Source: a virus. Taken from it: DNA of 39,549 nucleotides. The position numbers and the translations under genes are program-made. Positions 1,803 to 32,278 of the stretch are shown piece by piece. The stretch is from the IMG/VR virus record IMGVR_UViG_3300036761_001737, positions 1 through 39,549 of that record; one strand, written 5' to 3'. Under the pieces are notes generated by a model. The model ran no database searches and was not told the DNA's origin. It saw only the letters and a list, made by a program, of their open reading frames with translations. The first letter of the stretch is position 1; every line of letters begins with the position of its first letter.

Positions 1803-1981
1803 CCAAACCAAGGCTCCGATAGCGCAATATGCGCCCTGCTCAAGCGCAAGCATAATTTTTCTTGCCTTACTCCCACGTGGTTTTGCGGGGGTTATGGCTA
1901 AACTTTTTTGGGGTAAATGGTGAGTTTGGCACGGCGGTTGCTTATACAATAGGCGAGCAAAAAAAACAGGAGGGCAAAAAA

Positions 1982-2275
1982 ATGAGAGAAAAAATAGAAA
2001 TCATCGTAACCAGGCATCCGGGCCTGGTGGAATATCTCCGCGAGATTGGACTCGCGGACGAAAGTACTCAGGTTGTGGCACATGCCACGCCTGAGGTGGT
2101 GAAGGGGAGGCATGTTTGCGGCGTGCTTCCTCACTCGCTGTCTTGTCTGACGGCGAGTTTCACAGAAATTCCCCTCACCCTCCCCCAGGAGTTGCGGGGG
2201 GCTGAACTATCCCTGGCTCAGGTCAGGGAATTTGCCGGAAGCCCGGTAACGTACCGGGTGGAGGTGGTGACATGA
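1982..2275 (+). CDS. Csx16-like protein (Cas_VVA1548 family), putative type III CRISPR antagonist
   Basis: 97-aa protein, first gene of the rightward early operon. AGGAGG ahead of the ATG at 1982 fixes the start; an upstream ATG at 1862 lacks such a site. It shows the Csx16/VVA1548 pattern nearly end to end: IVTRHPG at residues 8-14, GVLPHSL at 47-53 and IPLTLPQELRGAELS at 63-77. As I recall, Csx16 has recently been grouped with type III CRISPR ancillary proteins that bind or cleave cyclic oligoadenylates (ring nucleases). There is no cas gene here, so in a phage it would most simply switch off cOA signalling, as the unrelated viral ring nuclease AcrIII-1 does. The family call is strong; the anti-CRISPR role is inference. 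It overlaps the next gene by ATGA. Confidence 0.8.
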   Translation: MREKIEIIVTRHPGLVEYLREIGLADESTQVVAHATPEVVKGRHVCGVLPHSLSCLTASFTEIPLTLPQELRGAELSLAQVREFAGSPVTYRVEVVT

Positions 2276-10820: not shown

Positions 10821-10906
10821 AAGCAAAACTGAAATTGTACGTATGGACAGAATTCAGCCCGGACTACACATCTGGATTAGGCCGAGAGGCCAAAGGAGAA
10901 CCATGA
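10817..10906 (+). CDS. 29-aa ORF, probably a truncated phage protein
   Basis: Overlaps the nuclease stop (ATGA) and the next start (ATGA). The product (MKAKLKLYVWTEFSPDYTSG...) resembles only the N-terminus of a longer phage family that begins with a YVWT..DYT-type motif. It stops after 29 residues, so it may be cut short just before the cassette region. Coupling on both sides suggests that it is still translated. Confidence 0.4.
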   Translation: MKAKLKLYVWTEFSPDYTSGLGREAKGEP

Positions 10907-11142
10907 AAGGCTTAAATGACTTGATTCTGAACGAAGCCACTATGATTGAGGCCGTGCAGTTTTGGCTTGACTCGAAGATGGTACTGCTAGCGCCAAAGGT
11001 GGTGGGCGTAAAGGTAAATTCGGATAGCTATTCCCTGGCATTCAGGGTTTCTCTCGATGCTGATGCGGACAGAACGGACCCACAACGTCGTACACTAACG
11101 CCGGAAATCAGCGGCCCGTGGAACACGGGTACGCTGGATTGA
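10903..11142 (+). CDS. 79-aa hypothetical protein
   Basis: The ATG at 10903 has AAAGGAGAA upstream and overlaps the preceding stop. Residues 5-55 (LNDLILNEATMIEAVQFWLDS...) look like a small alpha/beta domain; similar short phage proteins have no known role. The C-terminal 15 residues are encoded by the first attC-like repeat (11093-11152), so the gene end was probably shaped by cassette insertion. Confidence 0.55.
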   Translation: MKGLNDLILNEATMIEAVQFWLDSKMVLLAPKVVGVKVNSDSYSLAFRVSLDADADRTDPQRRTLTPEISGPWNTGTLD

Positions 11143-11152
11143 TTTGTTATCA
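11093..11152. repeat. attC-like site 0
   Basis: Imperfect stem: CAGCG (11109-11113) with CGCTG (11132-11136), and CCCGTG (11115-11120) with CACGGG (11124-11129), the right arm carrying an extra base. Core-like ends are CACTAAC on the left and GTTATCA on the right. The right core, GTTATCAC at 11146-11153, is complementary to GTGATAAC at the far end of the next unit. The weakest of the five sites. Confidence 0.5.
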
Positions 11153-11163
11153 CGGAGGTTAAT

Positions 11164-11337
11164 ATGAATAAAGATATTTTGGCATTAAGGCTGCGTGACG
11201 CCATAGCGGATAAAGAGTGGTGTATTGCCAGGGCCAATAATGATGTAGCCAAGTACGGAGAATGGCAATGTGACTGGAGCTTATGGATGAAAGAATGCCA
11301 GGATTGCATAGAATTAATTCTCCGCGAATTGGAGTGA
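11164..11337 (+). CDS. 57-aa cassette-borne hypothetical protein
   Basis: Starts MNKDILALRLRDAIADKEWC, with GGAGG upstream. A short helical, Trp- and Cys-containing protein with no recognised family. Its unit is bounded by GTTATCAC (11146) and GTGATAAC (11334-11341), which contains the stop codon, as is usual when a gene ends inside an attC site. Confidence 0.65.
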   Translation: MNKDILALRLRDAIADKEWCIARANNDVAKYGEWQCDWSLWMKECQDCIELILRELE

Positions 11338-11396
11338 TAACGCCCCGCTTCAAACTGCGAGCGGGACGCGAGCTAGTTTGCAAGCGGTTGTTGGAC
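11334..11396. repeat. attC-like site 1
   Basis: Left core GTGATAAC (11334-11341); arms CCGCTTCAAACT (11345-11356) and AGTTTGCAAGCGG (11375-11387), which pair completely except for one extra G in the right arm; right core GTTGGAC (11390-11396), a perfect GTTRRRY. The single unpaired base is the hallmark of folded attC sites. Confidence 0.7.
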
Positions 11397-11406
11397 GGGA
11401 GGAAAT

Positions 11407-11664
11407 ATGCCACTGAGAATCACAGTTGAGTTGATACCGCGTGGATTGGAAGCCGACAAGCGAAGGGTGGCCGTTGTGGAAATCCGTAACGATGGCACGG
11501 GTACGCACGAACAGGGCAACTATGACGTTAGCGCGGAAGGCGATTGCATGGGAGGATGGGACTCGTTCTTCTCTGGCAAGGTGCGCGGCGTGAAGCGCGG
11601 CGACTACCTCGACCAGGCGATTGACTGTCTGAGGGTTCTTCATACGTCCAACGAAAAAAGTTAA
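11407..11664 (+). CDS. 85-aa cassette-borne hypothetical protein
   Basis: GGGAGGAAAT precedes the ATG at 11407. The protein (MPLRITVELIPRGLEADKRR...) has a beta-rich pattern, including a VAVVEIRNDGTGT strand pair, and no known family that I recognise. The last codons (HTSNEKS) are encoded by the left core of attC-like site 2. Similar small beta proteins occur in environmental integron cassettes, but that is a general resemblance only. Confidence 0.7.
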   Translation: MPLRITVELIPRGLEADKRRVAVVEIRNDGTGTHEQGNYDVSAEGDCMGGWDSFFSGKVRGVKRGDYLDQAIDCLRVLHTSNEKS

Positions 11665-11706
11665 GCGGCCCGACGCAGTCGGGTCCGCTTGAACGAGGGG
11701 TTAGGC
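11646..11706. repeat. attC-like site 2 (best preserved)
   Basis: Left core GTCCAAC (11646-11652) and right core GTTAGGC (11700-11706) both fit RYYYAAC/GTTRRRY exactly. Arms TTAAGCGG-CCCGAC (11661-11674) and GTCGGG-T-CCGCTTGAA (11678-11693) pair around a GCA loop, leaving a bulged T and an extrahelical G. By the usual position of that G the plus strand is the recombining (bottom) strand. Confidence 0.8.
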
Positions 11707-11735
11707 CGCAGATTACACCCAAAAAAGGAGCAGAA

Positions 11736-12113
11736 ATGGACACTTACAAACTCTGTAAAGCGATTCGACGCCGGATTGTGAACCGCGCCGCCGAAGTTAT
11801 GAACTACACCAGTTGGAGCGATGACTTTGCTGCCAAGAAAATTCGATCCATTCCTACCGCCATCTTGAGCGATGAGAACTTTCAGCCGATCCGAGTTGAG
11901 GAACTTACCGCCGAGCAAATGGACGATCTTGGGTTTGGTTCTTGGTCTGAGGAAAACCCGATCCGGTTGATTCCGCTTTGGCTGTTTCCTTTCCTGCCCG
12001 AAGAGATCAACTGCGGCTGCATTGACGGCGAAAGCGGAACGCTCAAGAAATCGGAGATGGACAACGATCATCGTTTTGGCTGCCTTGCTTACGGTGTGAT
12101 GCCTGCGGTCTAA
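11736..12113 (+). CDS. 125-aa cassette-borne hypothetical protein
   Basis: AAAAAAGGAG lies before the ATG at 11736. The protein (MDTYKLCKAIRRRIVNRAAEVM...) is soluble and mixed alpha/beta, with PIRLIPLWLFPFLPEEINCG and GCIDGESG segments. Base composition is higher in GC than in neighbouring phage genes, consistent with acquisition. The TAA stop lies in the left core of attC-like site 3. No family recognised. Confidence 0.7.
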   Translation: MDTYKLCKAIRRRIVNRAAEVMNYTSWSDDFAAKKIRSIPTAILSDENFQPIRVEELTAEQMDDLGFGSWSEENPIRLIPLWLFPFLPEEINCGCIDGESGTLKKSEMDNDHRFGCLAYGVMPAV

Positions 12114-12194
12114 ACGTTATTTTAACCTGCCGCGCCACGGCAGATGATTGATGCGACCGCGCTGCTCGCGGTCAGGTTGAAAATTTGGTTAGCC
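12109..12194. repeat. attC-like site 3 (longest)
   Basis: The left end TGCGGTCTAAAC (12104-12115) nearly mirrors GTTAGGCCGCA at the start of its unit (11700). Arms are TTTTAACCTG (12120-12129) and CAGGTTGAAAA (12173-12183), again with one extra G on the right; the right core is GTTAGCC (12188-12194). The longer central part holds its own hairpin, GACCGC with GCGGTC. Confidence 0.7.
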
Positions 12195-12206
12195 TGGAGA
12201 AATTAA

Positions 12207-12731
12207 ATGAAATTATTGGTTAATGTTTTCGGAGCACCTAAGTCAGGGAAAACCACGATGATGGCATCTATCACCGCGTTTTTAAAATTACACGACATAA
12301 AGTGTGAGATGGCGGCTGATTATCCTAAAGAGATTCTATATGAGGAGCGTTTTTCTTTATTGAAGCGTCAGTTATATATTCTGGCAAAACAGGAAAAACG
12401 AATATACGACTTGTATAAGTTTTCGGATGTGGTGATTACAGATTGCCCCATACTGCACAGCATTGTTTACAATCACGACGAATATAGGACACTTCACCCT
12501 TTCGTTGTGGAGCTGCATGAGTCCTATAATAATCTGAACATCATAATGGAGAGAACCAAGCAACCTGATTATGGATGTTTTAAAATTTTTACTCCGGACC
12601 AAATAAGACAAATAGAAGTAGAAATACTGCAAGTTGTGTCGAAATACGAACATCATATTTTGACACAAGAAAAGGAGTCTATTGGTAAGGCAATAGACAT
12701 TGTAGCAAAAACACTAAACATCGAGGTGTAA
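12207..12731 (+). CDS. P-loop nucleotide kinase-like ATPase (NadR/AAA_28 type)
   Basis: 174 aa with Walker A GAPKSGKTT at residues 9-17, an AADYPKE segment (36-42) and a VVITDCPIL Walker B-like strand with D79. This is the pattern of phage and NadR-type small-molecule or nucleotide kinases, and the 174-aa size fits a single kinase domain. CTGGAGAAATTAA precedes the ATG. Its stop is two bases before the radical-SAM-like gene, both inside one attC-bounded unit, so the two probably act on the same small molecule or nucleotide. The substrate cannot be read from sequence. Confidence 0.75.
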   Translation: MKLLVNVFGAPKSGKTTMMASITAFLKLHDIKCEMAADYPKEILYEERFSLLKRQLYILAKQEKRIYDLYKFSDVVITDCPILHSIVYNHDEYRTLHPFVVELHESYNNLNIIMERTKQPDYGCFKIFTPDQIRQIEVEILQVVSKYEHHILTQEKESIGKAIDIVAKTLNIEV

Positions 12732-12733
12732 AC

Positions 12734-13591
12734 ATGGAACATGTTGAGAGGGTAATGATTTTTATTGAATTAGTAAAAGGTTGCTCAAATACTGCTTGTC
12801 CGTCGTATAAAACATTGTGTGCCCGGACTGATGATCAAGCGACACAGTTCATGACAAAAGACACCCTCAGTAATATTATTGATGACGTTCTCTCAAATCA
12901 AGAGAAACTGGAGTCGATTGGTCGTGTGGATATATGGGCTTACGGATGCGGCGACACCCTATTGCATCCTGATCTTGATGATATGGCTGAGTTGTTGAGT
13001 TTGATACCTTTTAAAAAGACTGTAGCGGTTGATTCCAATTGCTGGAGAGACAATAGTGGATGGGGCAATGTGCTCTCGCCCGTAGTACTTTTTAAAGAGG
13101 GTGCTTTTGGTCCCGCCACTCTAATTGAAACAGCAAAAAAATGGACACAGAATTTTAGTAGTCCTAGGTTTGGGTTTATCCTTAAAACTCTGACCCCTGA
13201 AATTCTTACATTGATGCGGTCGATCGAGCCTTGGTGGAACTACCCATTCGTAAAAGCTCGATCATTTCATTATGTTCCGCTAGGGGCGGAGTTGAGTCTT
13301 AATCAATTAAAAGAGGCTGTACGGCCAGATATAGTGATCGATAGTAACATTAACATTGAAAATATAGGATGCACCGACAAAAAAGCGATCCGTGTAATGT
13401 ATCGAGTTGATGGAACAACCAGACGGTGTTTAGTGTCAGGATTGACTAAAGGAGGATTATCCAACTATCTTACTGGCGACTTATCTGATTGTGCAGAATG
13501 TTTCCCACACATGGGTGGAGAACAAATCCTTGTGTATCCACAAAAAGTTTTACGGATGCAAAAAGCGAGATGTGTCAGCGATAAAGGCTAA
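12734..13591 (+). CDS. Radical-SAM-like protein with atypical cysteine spacing
   Basis: 285 aa. After a first beta strand (MIFIELVKG) come C17, C22 and C29, where radical SAM enzymes bind their 4Fe-4S cluster, but spaced Cx4Cx6C rather than Cx3Cx2C. WAYGCGDTLLHPDLDDM (69-84) strongly resembles the radical SAM GGEPLLHPDL segment. C-terminal cysteines C232, C253 and C256 recall a SPASM-type auxiliary cluster. It may be a divergent active enzyme or a relative that lost the cluster. The stop codon lies in the left core of attC-like site 4. It is paired with the kinase upstream. Confidence 0.6.
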   Translation: MEHVERVMIFIELVKGCSNTACPSYKTLCARTDDQATQFMTKDTLSNIIDDVLSNQEKLESIGRVDIWAYGCGDTLLHPDLDDMAELLSLIPFKKTVAVDSNCWRDNSGWGNVLSPVVLFKEGAFGPATLIETAKKWTQNFSSPRFGFILKTLTPEILTLMRSIEPWWNYPFVKARSFHYVPLGAELSLNQLKEAVRPDIVIDSNINIENIGCTDKKAIRVMYRVDGTTRRCLVSGLTKGGLSNYLTGDLSDCAECFPHMGGEQILVYPQKVLRMQKARCVSDKG

Positions 13592-13634
13592 CGCGGAATT
13601 GACGCTCTTTGTAGCGTCGAATGACTGGTTAGTA
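13586..13634. repeat. attC-like site 4
   Basis: Left end AGGCTAAC (13585-13592), the exact complement of GTTAGCCT at the start of its own unit (12188). Arms ATTGACGCT (13598-13606) and AGCGTCGAAT (13613-13622) pair with one extra G on the right. The right core-like sequence is GTTAGTA (13628-13634). No matching end for a following unit was found. Confidence 0.7.
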
Positions 13635-13650: not shown

Positions 13651-13890
13651 ATGAACACAGGGCAAGGGTATGGATGGGCCTCTTTGAGTCAATGGGATTT
13701 TCCCCCGGCTGATGCACACGTTGAATATAAAGCCATTGAGACGGCATTGAGCAAAGGAACTTGTCGATTCATGTTGGTAAACCGTATTGACCAAGGAGAA
13801 GGAGTTCTTCGTTGCGAATATGTCAAGAAGCATACCGTAACTCCTGAAATATTGGAATCAGCAGGAGAAATTCAACGCGGAATTGAGTGA
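13651..13890 (+). CDS. 79-aa hypothetical protein after last attC-like site
   Basis: GGAGGTTGGGT precedes the ATG at 13651. The product (MNTGQGYGWASLSQWDFPPA...) has a compact alpha/beta pattern with C37 and C54. It looks like the gene of a fifth cassette whose right boundary is degraded or absent; a weak hairpin (GAGTGA with TCACTC, 13885-13904) follows its stop. No family recognised. Confidence 0.6.
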   Translation: MNTGQGYGWASLSQWDFPPADAHVEYKAIETALSKGTCRFMLVNRIDQGEGVLRCEYVKKHTVTPEILESAGEIQRGIE

Positions 13891-30783: not shown

Positions 30784-32037
30784 TTATCCTTTTTTAACCA
30801 TCCATGATGAATCAGGGAAAAGCCGTATATTGTCTTTGCCGAATATTTCATCAACTGCCTGTATTACTCCTTCATACGCATGATTATAATCATGCCCGGC
30901 TATTATCCCGTTCAGCTTGACTTTTGGCAGCCATTTAACAATATCTTCTTTCACATAATCATATTCATGGTTGCCGTCGATATATACAAAATCAAAAAAA
31001 CTATCAGAAAAACGATTTACAGCTTGCATGGAAGTTTCGCGTATTTTATGCACCAGCGTTTTAAATGTTGCTATCCGTTTATCAAATAACTGTTCCACAA
31101 CATCCATATTATCAAGAGGCAATTCATTATAATCTACATTGGATTCCCAGGGATCGATTGAATATATTTCTTTAAACTTGCCGCATTTATTGAAAAATTC
31201 GGTCGATTCTCCGGTATAACAGCCTATTTCAGCCATTACGCCGTTTTCACAATCAAATGAAGAAAGCAATGGGGCTAAAGATAAGACGGGTAAATGTCTC
31301 ATTTTCGTGATGCGATCTATTTTCCCCTGGGCTTCATTAATCCCGCCAGGACGTTTTTTCAAATATTCATGAAAATTACCCGGATACCCGATTTCACCTT
31401 CATAATGAATTAAATCTATATCAGGGATAAGCCAGATTTGACCTCCAAGTCCAGTCCATAAATCACAAAAGGCATAATCTTCGCCAATCCATCTATGATT
31501 CCGGACTCCTTGTGGGAAGAAATCATGAGCAATATTGATTTTTTCCCCATTTTTCAATCCATAATAAGCGAGGTCTGGATACCCTTCGCTAATCTTTGTA
31601 AAAACTACCCGGTTTATCCTTAGGAATCCTGTTTGCACCCTGCTTGCCAAAATACATCCGTCATCACGGGTTAACGCCACCCGATGCGGCCCAACATGGA
31701 TTCTTACAGGATATTCTTCTTCATCAGATTTTAAACGATAGGCCCCGGCCACAACATCTCCGGGCGTTTCAATGAGTCTAAGCAAATCTTTCGCTTTGTA
31801 TTCTATGTCATCAGCCACAAAAATAAAAATAGCGCATTTAGACTTTAGAAATTGCGATACCAAATCATTCCGTGCCTTTTGAATATAAGGGTCTTGCCAT
31901 GCGATGCCATGACAAGGAGAATATCCGTGTTGTTTTAACAACTCCACTGCGCCCTTAAGTGAAGACCAGAACTGTTTACATTCTGGTCTTCTATAAAGGT
32001 GAAGTGCAAAAAAAACGTTTTTGTTATTTCCTTCCAT
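30784..32037 (-). CDS. GT-A-like glycosyltransferase fused to class I methyltransferase
   Basis: 417 aa, starting at ATG 32037 directly after the previous stop. Residues 1-240 resemble phage GT-A-type domains (ARNDLVSQFLKSKCAIFIFVADDIEY with the DD acid pair, then DVVAGAYRLKSD). Residues 265-417 are a Methyltransf_24/FkbM-like fold: MAEIGCYTGES motif I, YSIDPW, FDFVYIDGNHEYDYVKEDI and GIIAGHDY. It lies between coat and connector genes, suggesting that it modifies virion proteins or host surface sugars. Both domain calls are by motif. Confidence 0.7.
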   Translation of the reverse strand: MEGNNKNVFFALHLYRRPECKQFWSSLKGAVELLKQHGYSPCHGIAWQDPYIQKARNDLVSQFLKSKCAIFIFVADDIEYKAKDLLRLIETPGDVVAGAYRLKSDEEEYPVRIHVGPHRVALTRDDGCILASRVQTGFLRINRVVFTKISEGYPDLAYYGLKNGEKINIAHDFFPQGVRNHRWIGEDYAFCDLWTGLGGQIWLIPDIDLIHYEGEIGYPGNFHEYLKKRPGGINEAQGKIDRITKMRHLPVLSLAPLLSSFDCENGVMAEIGCYTGESTEFFNKCGKFKEIYSIDPWESNVDYNELPLDNMDVVEQLFDKRIATFKTLVHKIRETSMQAVNRFSDSFFDFVYIDGNHEYDYVKEDIVKWLPKVKLNGIIAGHDYNHAYEGVIQAVDEIFGKDNIRLFPDSSWMVKKG

Positions 32038-32038
32038 C

Positions 32039-32278
32039 TTACGCGGATGCCTGTATCCCAATATCGCTTAAATCATCAAGCAGGGTATTAAATTTCGTGC
32101 CTAATGAGTTAAGCTCTGCAAGTATCGTTGAAAACGTCGTACCGGCAGCGGTGCTGATGTCAGCTATTGTAGCTGCCTGAGACACTGCCGTCCCGCCGTA
32201 AAGATGGATTTTTTCCGTGGTTCCGCTTACAACGCCGGTTCCATCCGGTTGCCCTGTGCCTAAAACTTCTATTGCCAT
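32039..32278 (-). CDS. 79-aa hypothetical next to coat gene
   Basis: MAIEVLGTGQPDGTGVVSGTTEK... is Gly/Thr-rich then helical (FSTILAELNSLGTKFNTLLDDL). GGAGGAAAAACA precedes the ATG. A head decoration or capsid-stabilising role is possible from position; no family known. Confidence 0.6.
   Translation of the reverse strand: MAIEVLGTGQPDGTGVVSGTTEKIHLYGGTAVSQAATIADISTAAGTTFSTILAELNSLGTKFNTLLDDLSDIGIQASA

Follow-up and report, generated by a model that had tools for sequence, protein, structure and literature searches.

Integrase-less cassette arrays (CALINs) consist of at least two integron recombination sites (attC) lying close together with no gene for the integron integrase (IntI) nearby, while a complete integron has intI together with attI. 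Both kinds are known from phages: a survey of 10,705 phage genomes found 17 CALINs and three complete integrons (Qi et al. 2023, PMC9892861), and IntI1 recombined five of the six phage-borne attC sites tested (PMC9892861). Here we analyse positions 11093–13634 of the virus record IMGVR_UViG_3300036761_001737, which was taken as a whole (39,549 bases, termed the window). This stretch is a further member of the known phage CALINs, with five attC sites in 2.5 kb and no IntI encoded in the record; very probably it holds four cassettes inserted into one founder attC. In this P22-like phage it is located close to the 3′ end of the early genes on the plus strand. An initial annotation had proposed an integron-type cassette array here and had called phage-borne attC arrays very rare; the survey counts put that remark in context and mean that such arrays are already published.

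The published phage CALINs MW202573, TJE1 and PH101 (PMC9892861) have the same attC arrays, small genes, lack of an integrase and tailed-phage setting. MW202573, which by its portal protein is also the nearest annotated relative of the present record (39%), has the same reversed layout when scanned with our attC model (R1, below). Compared with the published examples, the present array shows four clean cassettes and a recognisable founder site. Cassettes of class 1 integrons (aadA, cmlA and catB types) share its GTTRRRY/RYYYAAC cores, unpaired base and AA↓C cleavage rule; they differ in their canonical direction in the arrays scored, their expression from Pc and their resistance cargo. Sedentary chromosomal integrons of Verrucomicrobiota, which served for model building, have the same attC register and cores; unlike the present record they have an IntI gene, and in most of the bacterial cassettes scored (54 of 61, class 1 included) the genes point toward R″. 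The reversed polarity of genes relative to attC is the part of our array that we did not find in PMC9892861: the text does not discuss gene direction relative to attC, and it uses ‘orientation’ and ‘direction’ only for vector design, in a cited title, and for how genes, or attC sites, are directed relative to one another.

attC sites and the ring of cores

Training sites were drawn from class 1 integrons on plasmids (L045–L048) and from regions adjoining IntI genes in Verrucomicrobiota genomes, 108 of 388 of which had a detected IntI. Eighteen attC sites, all bacterial, were aligned (A3) and made into a covariance model with explicit structure, R1. On the 39.5-kb record R1 finds exactly five sites (A–E), all on the minus strand and within one 2.5-kb stretch, at 24.3–35.9 bits (E 4.3e-6 to 1.6e-3); the next match in the record reaches 9.4 bits, and even when matches up to E 10 are admitted, none of the five has one on the plus strand. 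The five imperfect inverted repeats of the initial annotation, for which it had proposed scoring with an attC covariance model, are thus all present where it placed them and are not a chance occurrence. A search of 434 kb in 32 loci (mostly other viral contigs, and one contig of a bacterial metagenome-assembled genome, MAG) gave five matches with E ≤1, three in MW202573, one in viral locus L026 and one in the MAG contig L005, none of which was judged false from its context. The bacterial integron regions gave 109 matches, the best above 50 bits. The covariance model took the place of a hand-made hairpin finder that had overlooked four of the five.

In structure all five sites follow the bacterial pattern. 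The R″ and R′ cores (RYYYAAC and GTTRRRY) bound an imperfect hairpin, and covariance-model alignments and folds place an unpaired (extrahelical) base at position 16 of the top strand, here the minus strand. The bacterial register, read by eye on that strand, is kept at every site: AAC is followed by eight bases, then an unpaired C or G and one base of any kind, with A at positions 18 and 23 and a C before R′ (CGTT). The extrahelical base on one arm sets the recombining strand of attC. The extra base had been described as a G on the right arm of the plus strand; the arm is right for all five sites, and the base is G in A, C, D and E and C in site B.

The cores of neighbouring sites match one another. 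Right core A equals left core B over 8 nt (GTTATCAC), right core B equals left core C (GTTGGACG) and right core D equals left core E (GTTAGCCT), likewise exactly over 8 nt, whereas right core C and left core D differ by one indel and one change (GTTAGGCCGCA and GTTTAGACCGCA). The cycle is closed by right core E and left core A, which agree at seven of eight positions (GTTAGTAT and GTTAGTGT), a match that the initial annotation had missed. By match count this neighbour pairing ranks first among the 120 possible pairings. Each unit thus ends in complementary cores of its own, as gene cassettes do and as had been claimed, and the closed ring of cores is what the insertion of four cassettes at a single founder site would leave; the left half of that site is the left core of site A (CACTAAC, ending at 11099). 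Removing the four cassettes joins this core to hairpin E, and the two cores then pair (ACTAAC/GTTAGT).

Cassette boundaries (Table 1) were obtained by applying the integron cleavage rule, G↓TT, to the matched cores. They correct the earlier count of five small-gene units to four complete cassettes plus the founder site: the fourth unit holds two genes and the fifth has no second boundary. The statement that plus-strand genes stop inside or at the left cores is accurate for units 1, 3 and 4, and the gene of unit 2 stops about 12 nt into site C. The G+C content of the genes differs between cassettes 1 to 4 (42, 56, 51 and 40%), as expected if the cassettes were acquired separately.

Gene polarity relative to attC

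All four cassettes combine plus-strand genes with minus-strand attC sites, each gene beginning just after R″ and ending at R′; the earlier remark that the genes run opposite to the usual cassette orientation is borne out. A gene 3′ end at R″ is a typical, not absolute, trait of cassettes, absent from all four units here. Scored by the same rule, bacterial cassettes (class 1 included) are canonical in 54 cases, reversed in 7 (7 of 61) and unclear in 20. Four reversed cassettes are found in MW202573 (our locus L030), where the three R1 matches with E ≤1 and two weaker ones are all on the minus strand, the annotated genes there are all on the plus strand, and the units have self-complementary ends. 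PH101 gives two weak matches (16.3 and 15.6 bits) opposite to its genes; TJE1 and L026 have the canonical direction. Phages thus do not always show reversal, but within this array it is without exception. A Fisher test (P 8e-7) is not used, since cassettes of the same array are not independent and the eight reversed phage cassettes were entered by hand.

The choice of strand in integrons aligns the cassette with Pc (PMC8946536), so reversed cassettes would be antisense to Pc in a standard integron. They look suited to phage genomes, or retained in them by the direction in which the phage is transcribed or replicated, and the genes stand in a row as if arranged for phage, not bacterial, expression. 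Units 1, 2 and 4 and the gene after site E have a purine-rich ribosome-binding site within about 15–20 nt of the core, and that of unit 3 lies about 30 nt past it; such placement near the cores would suit translation from a long phage message.

We propose that left core A and hairpin E made up the founder attC and that four cassettes were inserted there. On the plus strand each reads hairpin, right core, Shine–Dalgarno sequence, gene and stop codon. The gene thus comes after the attC of its cassette and abuts the recombination point with its 3′ end, the reverse of the bacterial layout of gene and then R″. Proteins of the record gave no match to IntI (TIGR02249) or to tyrosine recombinases (PF00589), in agreement with the earlier statement that no integron integrase is present, and the enzyme has to be of external origin. 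The likely agent would be an integron integrase provided in trans, either by the host or by a co-resident element; it would cut the folded plus strand (the bottom strand of attC) and let phage and host DNA exchange cassettes at their attC sites. The genes, each with a ribosome-binding site of its own, would be expressed by read-through transcription from the phage. The array may in this way let phages swap their early genes unit by unit.

Cassette genes in other genomes and competing explanations

Two of the cassette genes recur beside attC-like sites elsewhere. A homologue of the cassette 3 gene (63%) in viral contig L002 is bounded by GTTAGGCCAAA and TTTGGCCTAAC, and another (67%) in the Verrucomicrobiales MAG contig L005 adjoins an attC on the opposite strand, that is, in reversed polarity; this MAG had no match above the IntI cut-off. 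Homologues in the phage gene rows L003, L004 and L007 are ordinary genes, with no such hairpins seen there. The family is an ordinary gene in many enterobacterial phages too, and more distant homologues occur in 180 phage records. The cassette 2 gene has a homologue (54%) in viral contig L094 right after a reversed attC-like hairpin, a half-site of which is identical to site A at 16 of 17 bases. A 20-nt half-site pattern from site A and L094 matched ten stretches of the viral collection, one of them the L094 contig itself and the other nine apparently a single coding sequence unrelated to attC. In L002 (4790–5470) the cassette 3 homologue follows an open reading frame (ORF) that by eye looks cut short (it ends in GIAFDTAALARCGC) and may be a phage gene into which the cassette was inserted. 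The start of L005 (1–640) is a cassette-like unit with a phage-family gene in reversed polarity. Methyltransferase genes lie inside the MW202573 array and, by our own reading of the sequence, also adjoin the L026 site, so DNA modification is a plausible theme. A 40.1-kb relative (64% by portal protein) had no attC match in the loci searched, which indicates that the array is not constant across this group of phages. A genome-scale search with the RNA model came out empty even for the genome that holds L026 (G007), a locus with a 34.7-bit local match, and is not counted as evidence of absence.

The integron-cassette reading is thus supported by R1, by the bacterial structural register, by the cyclic cores and by cassette-like copies of two genes elsewhere. 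Several points weigh against it. With no integrase encoded in the record, no enzyme can be named. A close relative with a different cassette set was not found, and exchange is accordingly inferred from the footprint only. The L002 and L094 sites score poorly under R1 (11.1 and 9.6 bits), being attC-like by eye and not by model, and the R1 E-values, which come from a short calibration, are rough. Minus-strand ORFs of 97 and 136 amino acids (aa) also run through units 2 and 3, although homology backs the plus-strand genes.

Among the competing explanations the least improbable, though still rather unlikely in our judgement, is that genuine attC sites were captured once from a bacterial integron and are now inert in the phage. 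The missing integrase, the failure to find a relative with a differing array and site scores (24–36 bits) below those of the best bacterial sites (>50 bits) would all agree with such a fossil. Decay is only slight, however, as three of the four units retain core matches over 8 nt and the unpaired bases are kept at every site; moreover the uniform gene reversal is unlike bacterial donor arrays (54 canonical, 7 reversed), and reversed attC-like sites also adjoin homologues of cassette genes 2 and 3 elsewhere. That reversal also speaks against a chimeric assembly joining a bacterial integron fragment to a phage contig, which we hold to be very unlikely even though the record is a metagenomic virus contig in which no end repeats were detected: the cassette 3 gene belongs to the phage protein family phrog_6726, the upstream gene reads through the attC of the first cassette, and MW202573, a related phage genome recorded as circular, has the same arrangement adjoining its early genes.

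None of the five hairpins is among the terminator-like sites of a scan. Transcription terminators or RNA-processing signals between phage genes, with core complementarity arising by coincidence, are hardly credible here: every hairpin is intergenic on the plus strand and would fold in RNA (the fold is shown with DNA parameters), but the fixed position of the unpaired base, the CGTT/AAC cores and the cyclic core identity would be left unexplained. An unrelated recombinase of the phage or the host, not recognised as such and likewise acting on folded hairpins, might instead move attC-like cassettes. This would accord with the lack of any recognisable IntI or tyrosine recombinase in the record, several early genes of which have no family. 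Against this, a model of IntI-linked attC sites accommodates the five sites with no adjustment and attC sites of other phages recombine with IntI1 in a published assay (PMC9892861), and we hold it to be very unlikely.

A wider reading may tentatively be put forward, on the strength of two or three arrays. Phages might keep and trade a pool of reversed-polarity cassettes of their own, built for read-through transcription (hairpin, ribosome-binding site, gene) and not for Pc, with cassettes arising from ordinary phage genes in phage genomes. Phages would then be a birthplace of cassettes, with host integrases only as a tool. The family phrog_6726 bears on where integron cassettes originate and how genes become cassettes: in several phages it is a plain gene, and two viral records and one bacterial MAG have it as an attC-bounded cassette. 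The step from gene to cassette is thereby open to study.

Genes of the array and the phage genome

Table 1. Positions in the window of the attC sites, cassettes and genes (cassette ends follow the G↓TT rule on cores; SD, Shine–Dalgarno sequence)
Feature	Position	Strand	Details
Gene 0 (before site A)	10903..11142	+	79 aa; last 16 codons (TLTPEISGPWNTGTLD) encoded by attC site A
attC site A	11093..11152	-	R1 35.9 bits, E 4.3e-6; fold; hairpin of cassette 1
Cassette 1	11099..11340	+	242 bp; C + hairpin A + GTTATCAC + SD + gene + TGATAA
Cassette 1 gene	11164..11337	+	57 aa; no known family
attC site B	11335..11396	-	R1 24.3 bits, E 0.0016; hairpin of cassette 2
Cassette 2	11341..11651	+	311 bp
Cassette 2 gene	11407..11664	+	85 aa; 54% homologue in viral contig L094
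attC site C	11646..11706	-	R1 24.5 bits, E 0.0014; hairpin of cassette 3
Cassette 3	11652..12114	+	463 bp
Cassette 3 gene	11736..12113	+	125 aa; phrog_6726
attC site D	12109..12194	-	R1 25.4 bits, E 0.00087; hairpin of cassette 4
Cassette 4	12115..13591	+	1477 bp; two genes
Cassette 4 gene a	12207..12731	+	174 aa; P-loop NTPase / nucleotide-kinase-like
Cassette 4 gene b	12734..13591	+	285 aa; no family
attC site E	13586..13634	-	R1 27.9 bits, E 0.00025; hairpin and right core of inferred founder site
Gene after founder site	13651..13890	+	79 aa; SD GGAGG just after right core E

In translation gene 0 reads through site A, which supplies its C-terminal codons, so that insertion of a cassette at the founder site would alter the C-terminus of its protein. 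The matches of the cassette 4 gene a product are weak (a sub-threshold AAA_28 and phrog_2107, thymidylate kinase). In the protein of gene b the cysteines are arranged as CSNTACPSYKTLC and CAEC, which recalls metal-cluster enzymes; its single-sequence AlphaFold model (pLDDT 38.8) has no usable fold and was not taken into a fold search. Scans of viral contigs with the two cassette 4 proteins found no relatives.

By PHROG matches the morphogenesis block, on the minus strand, is that of a P22-like tailed phage, with terminase, P22-type portal, scaffold and coat proteins, and other viral contigs hold portal, terminase and coat homologues at 60–67% identity. In the plus-strand early block the array lies just after a 716-aa gene with a recombination-directionality-factor-like domain, which has a counterpart of ∼69% identity in another viral contig. 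These genes leave the phage context in little doubt. A Verrucomicrobiota host was considered, L005 being a Verrucomicrobiales MAG, and set aside: only one of the 388 genomes has a portal match, and that one is distant (27%).

Two further genes lie away from the array. A 137-aa protein (1862–2275, plus strand) matches Csx16 over residues 48–133 (PF09652, 4.5e-17; PADLOC Csx16, 4e-17). Csx16 is a cA4 ring nuclease that one survey found in two of 28,114 phage genomes (PMC12409355), and the protein here is a candidate antagonist by which the phage could oppose type III CRISPR signalling. In the late block a 425-aa protein adjoining the coat gene (30784–32061, minus strand) has a C-terminal methyltransferase domain (PF13578) and is common to related phages.

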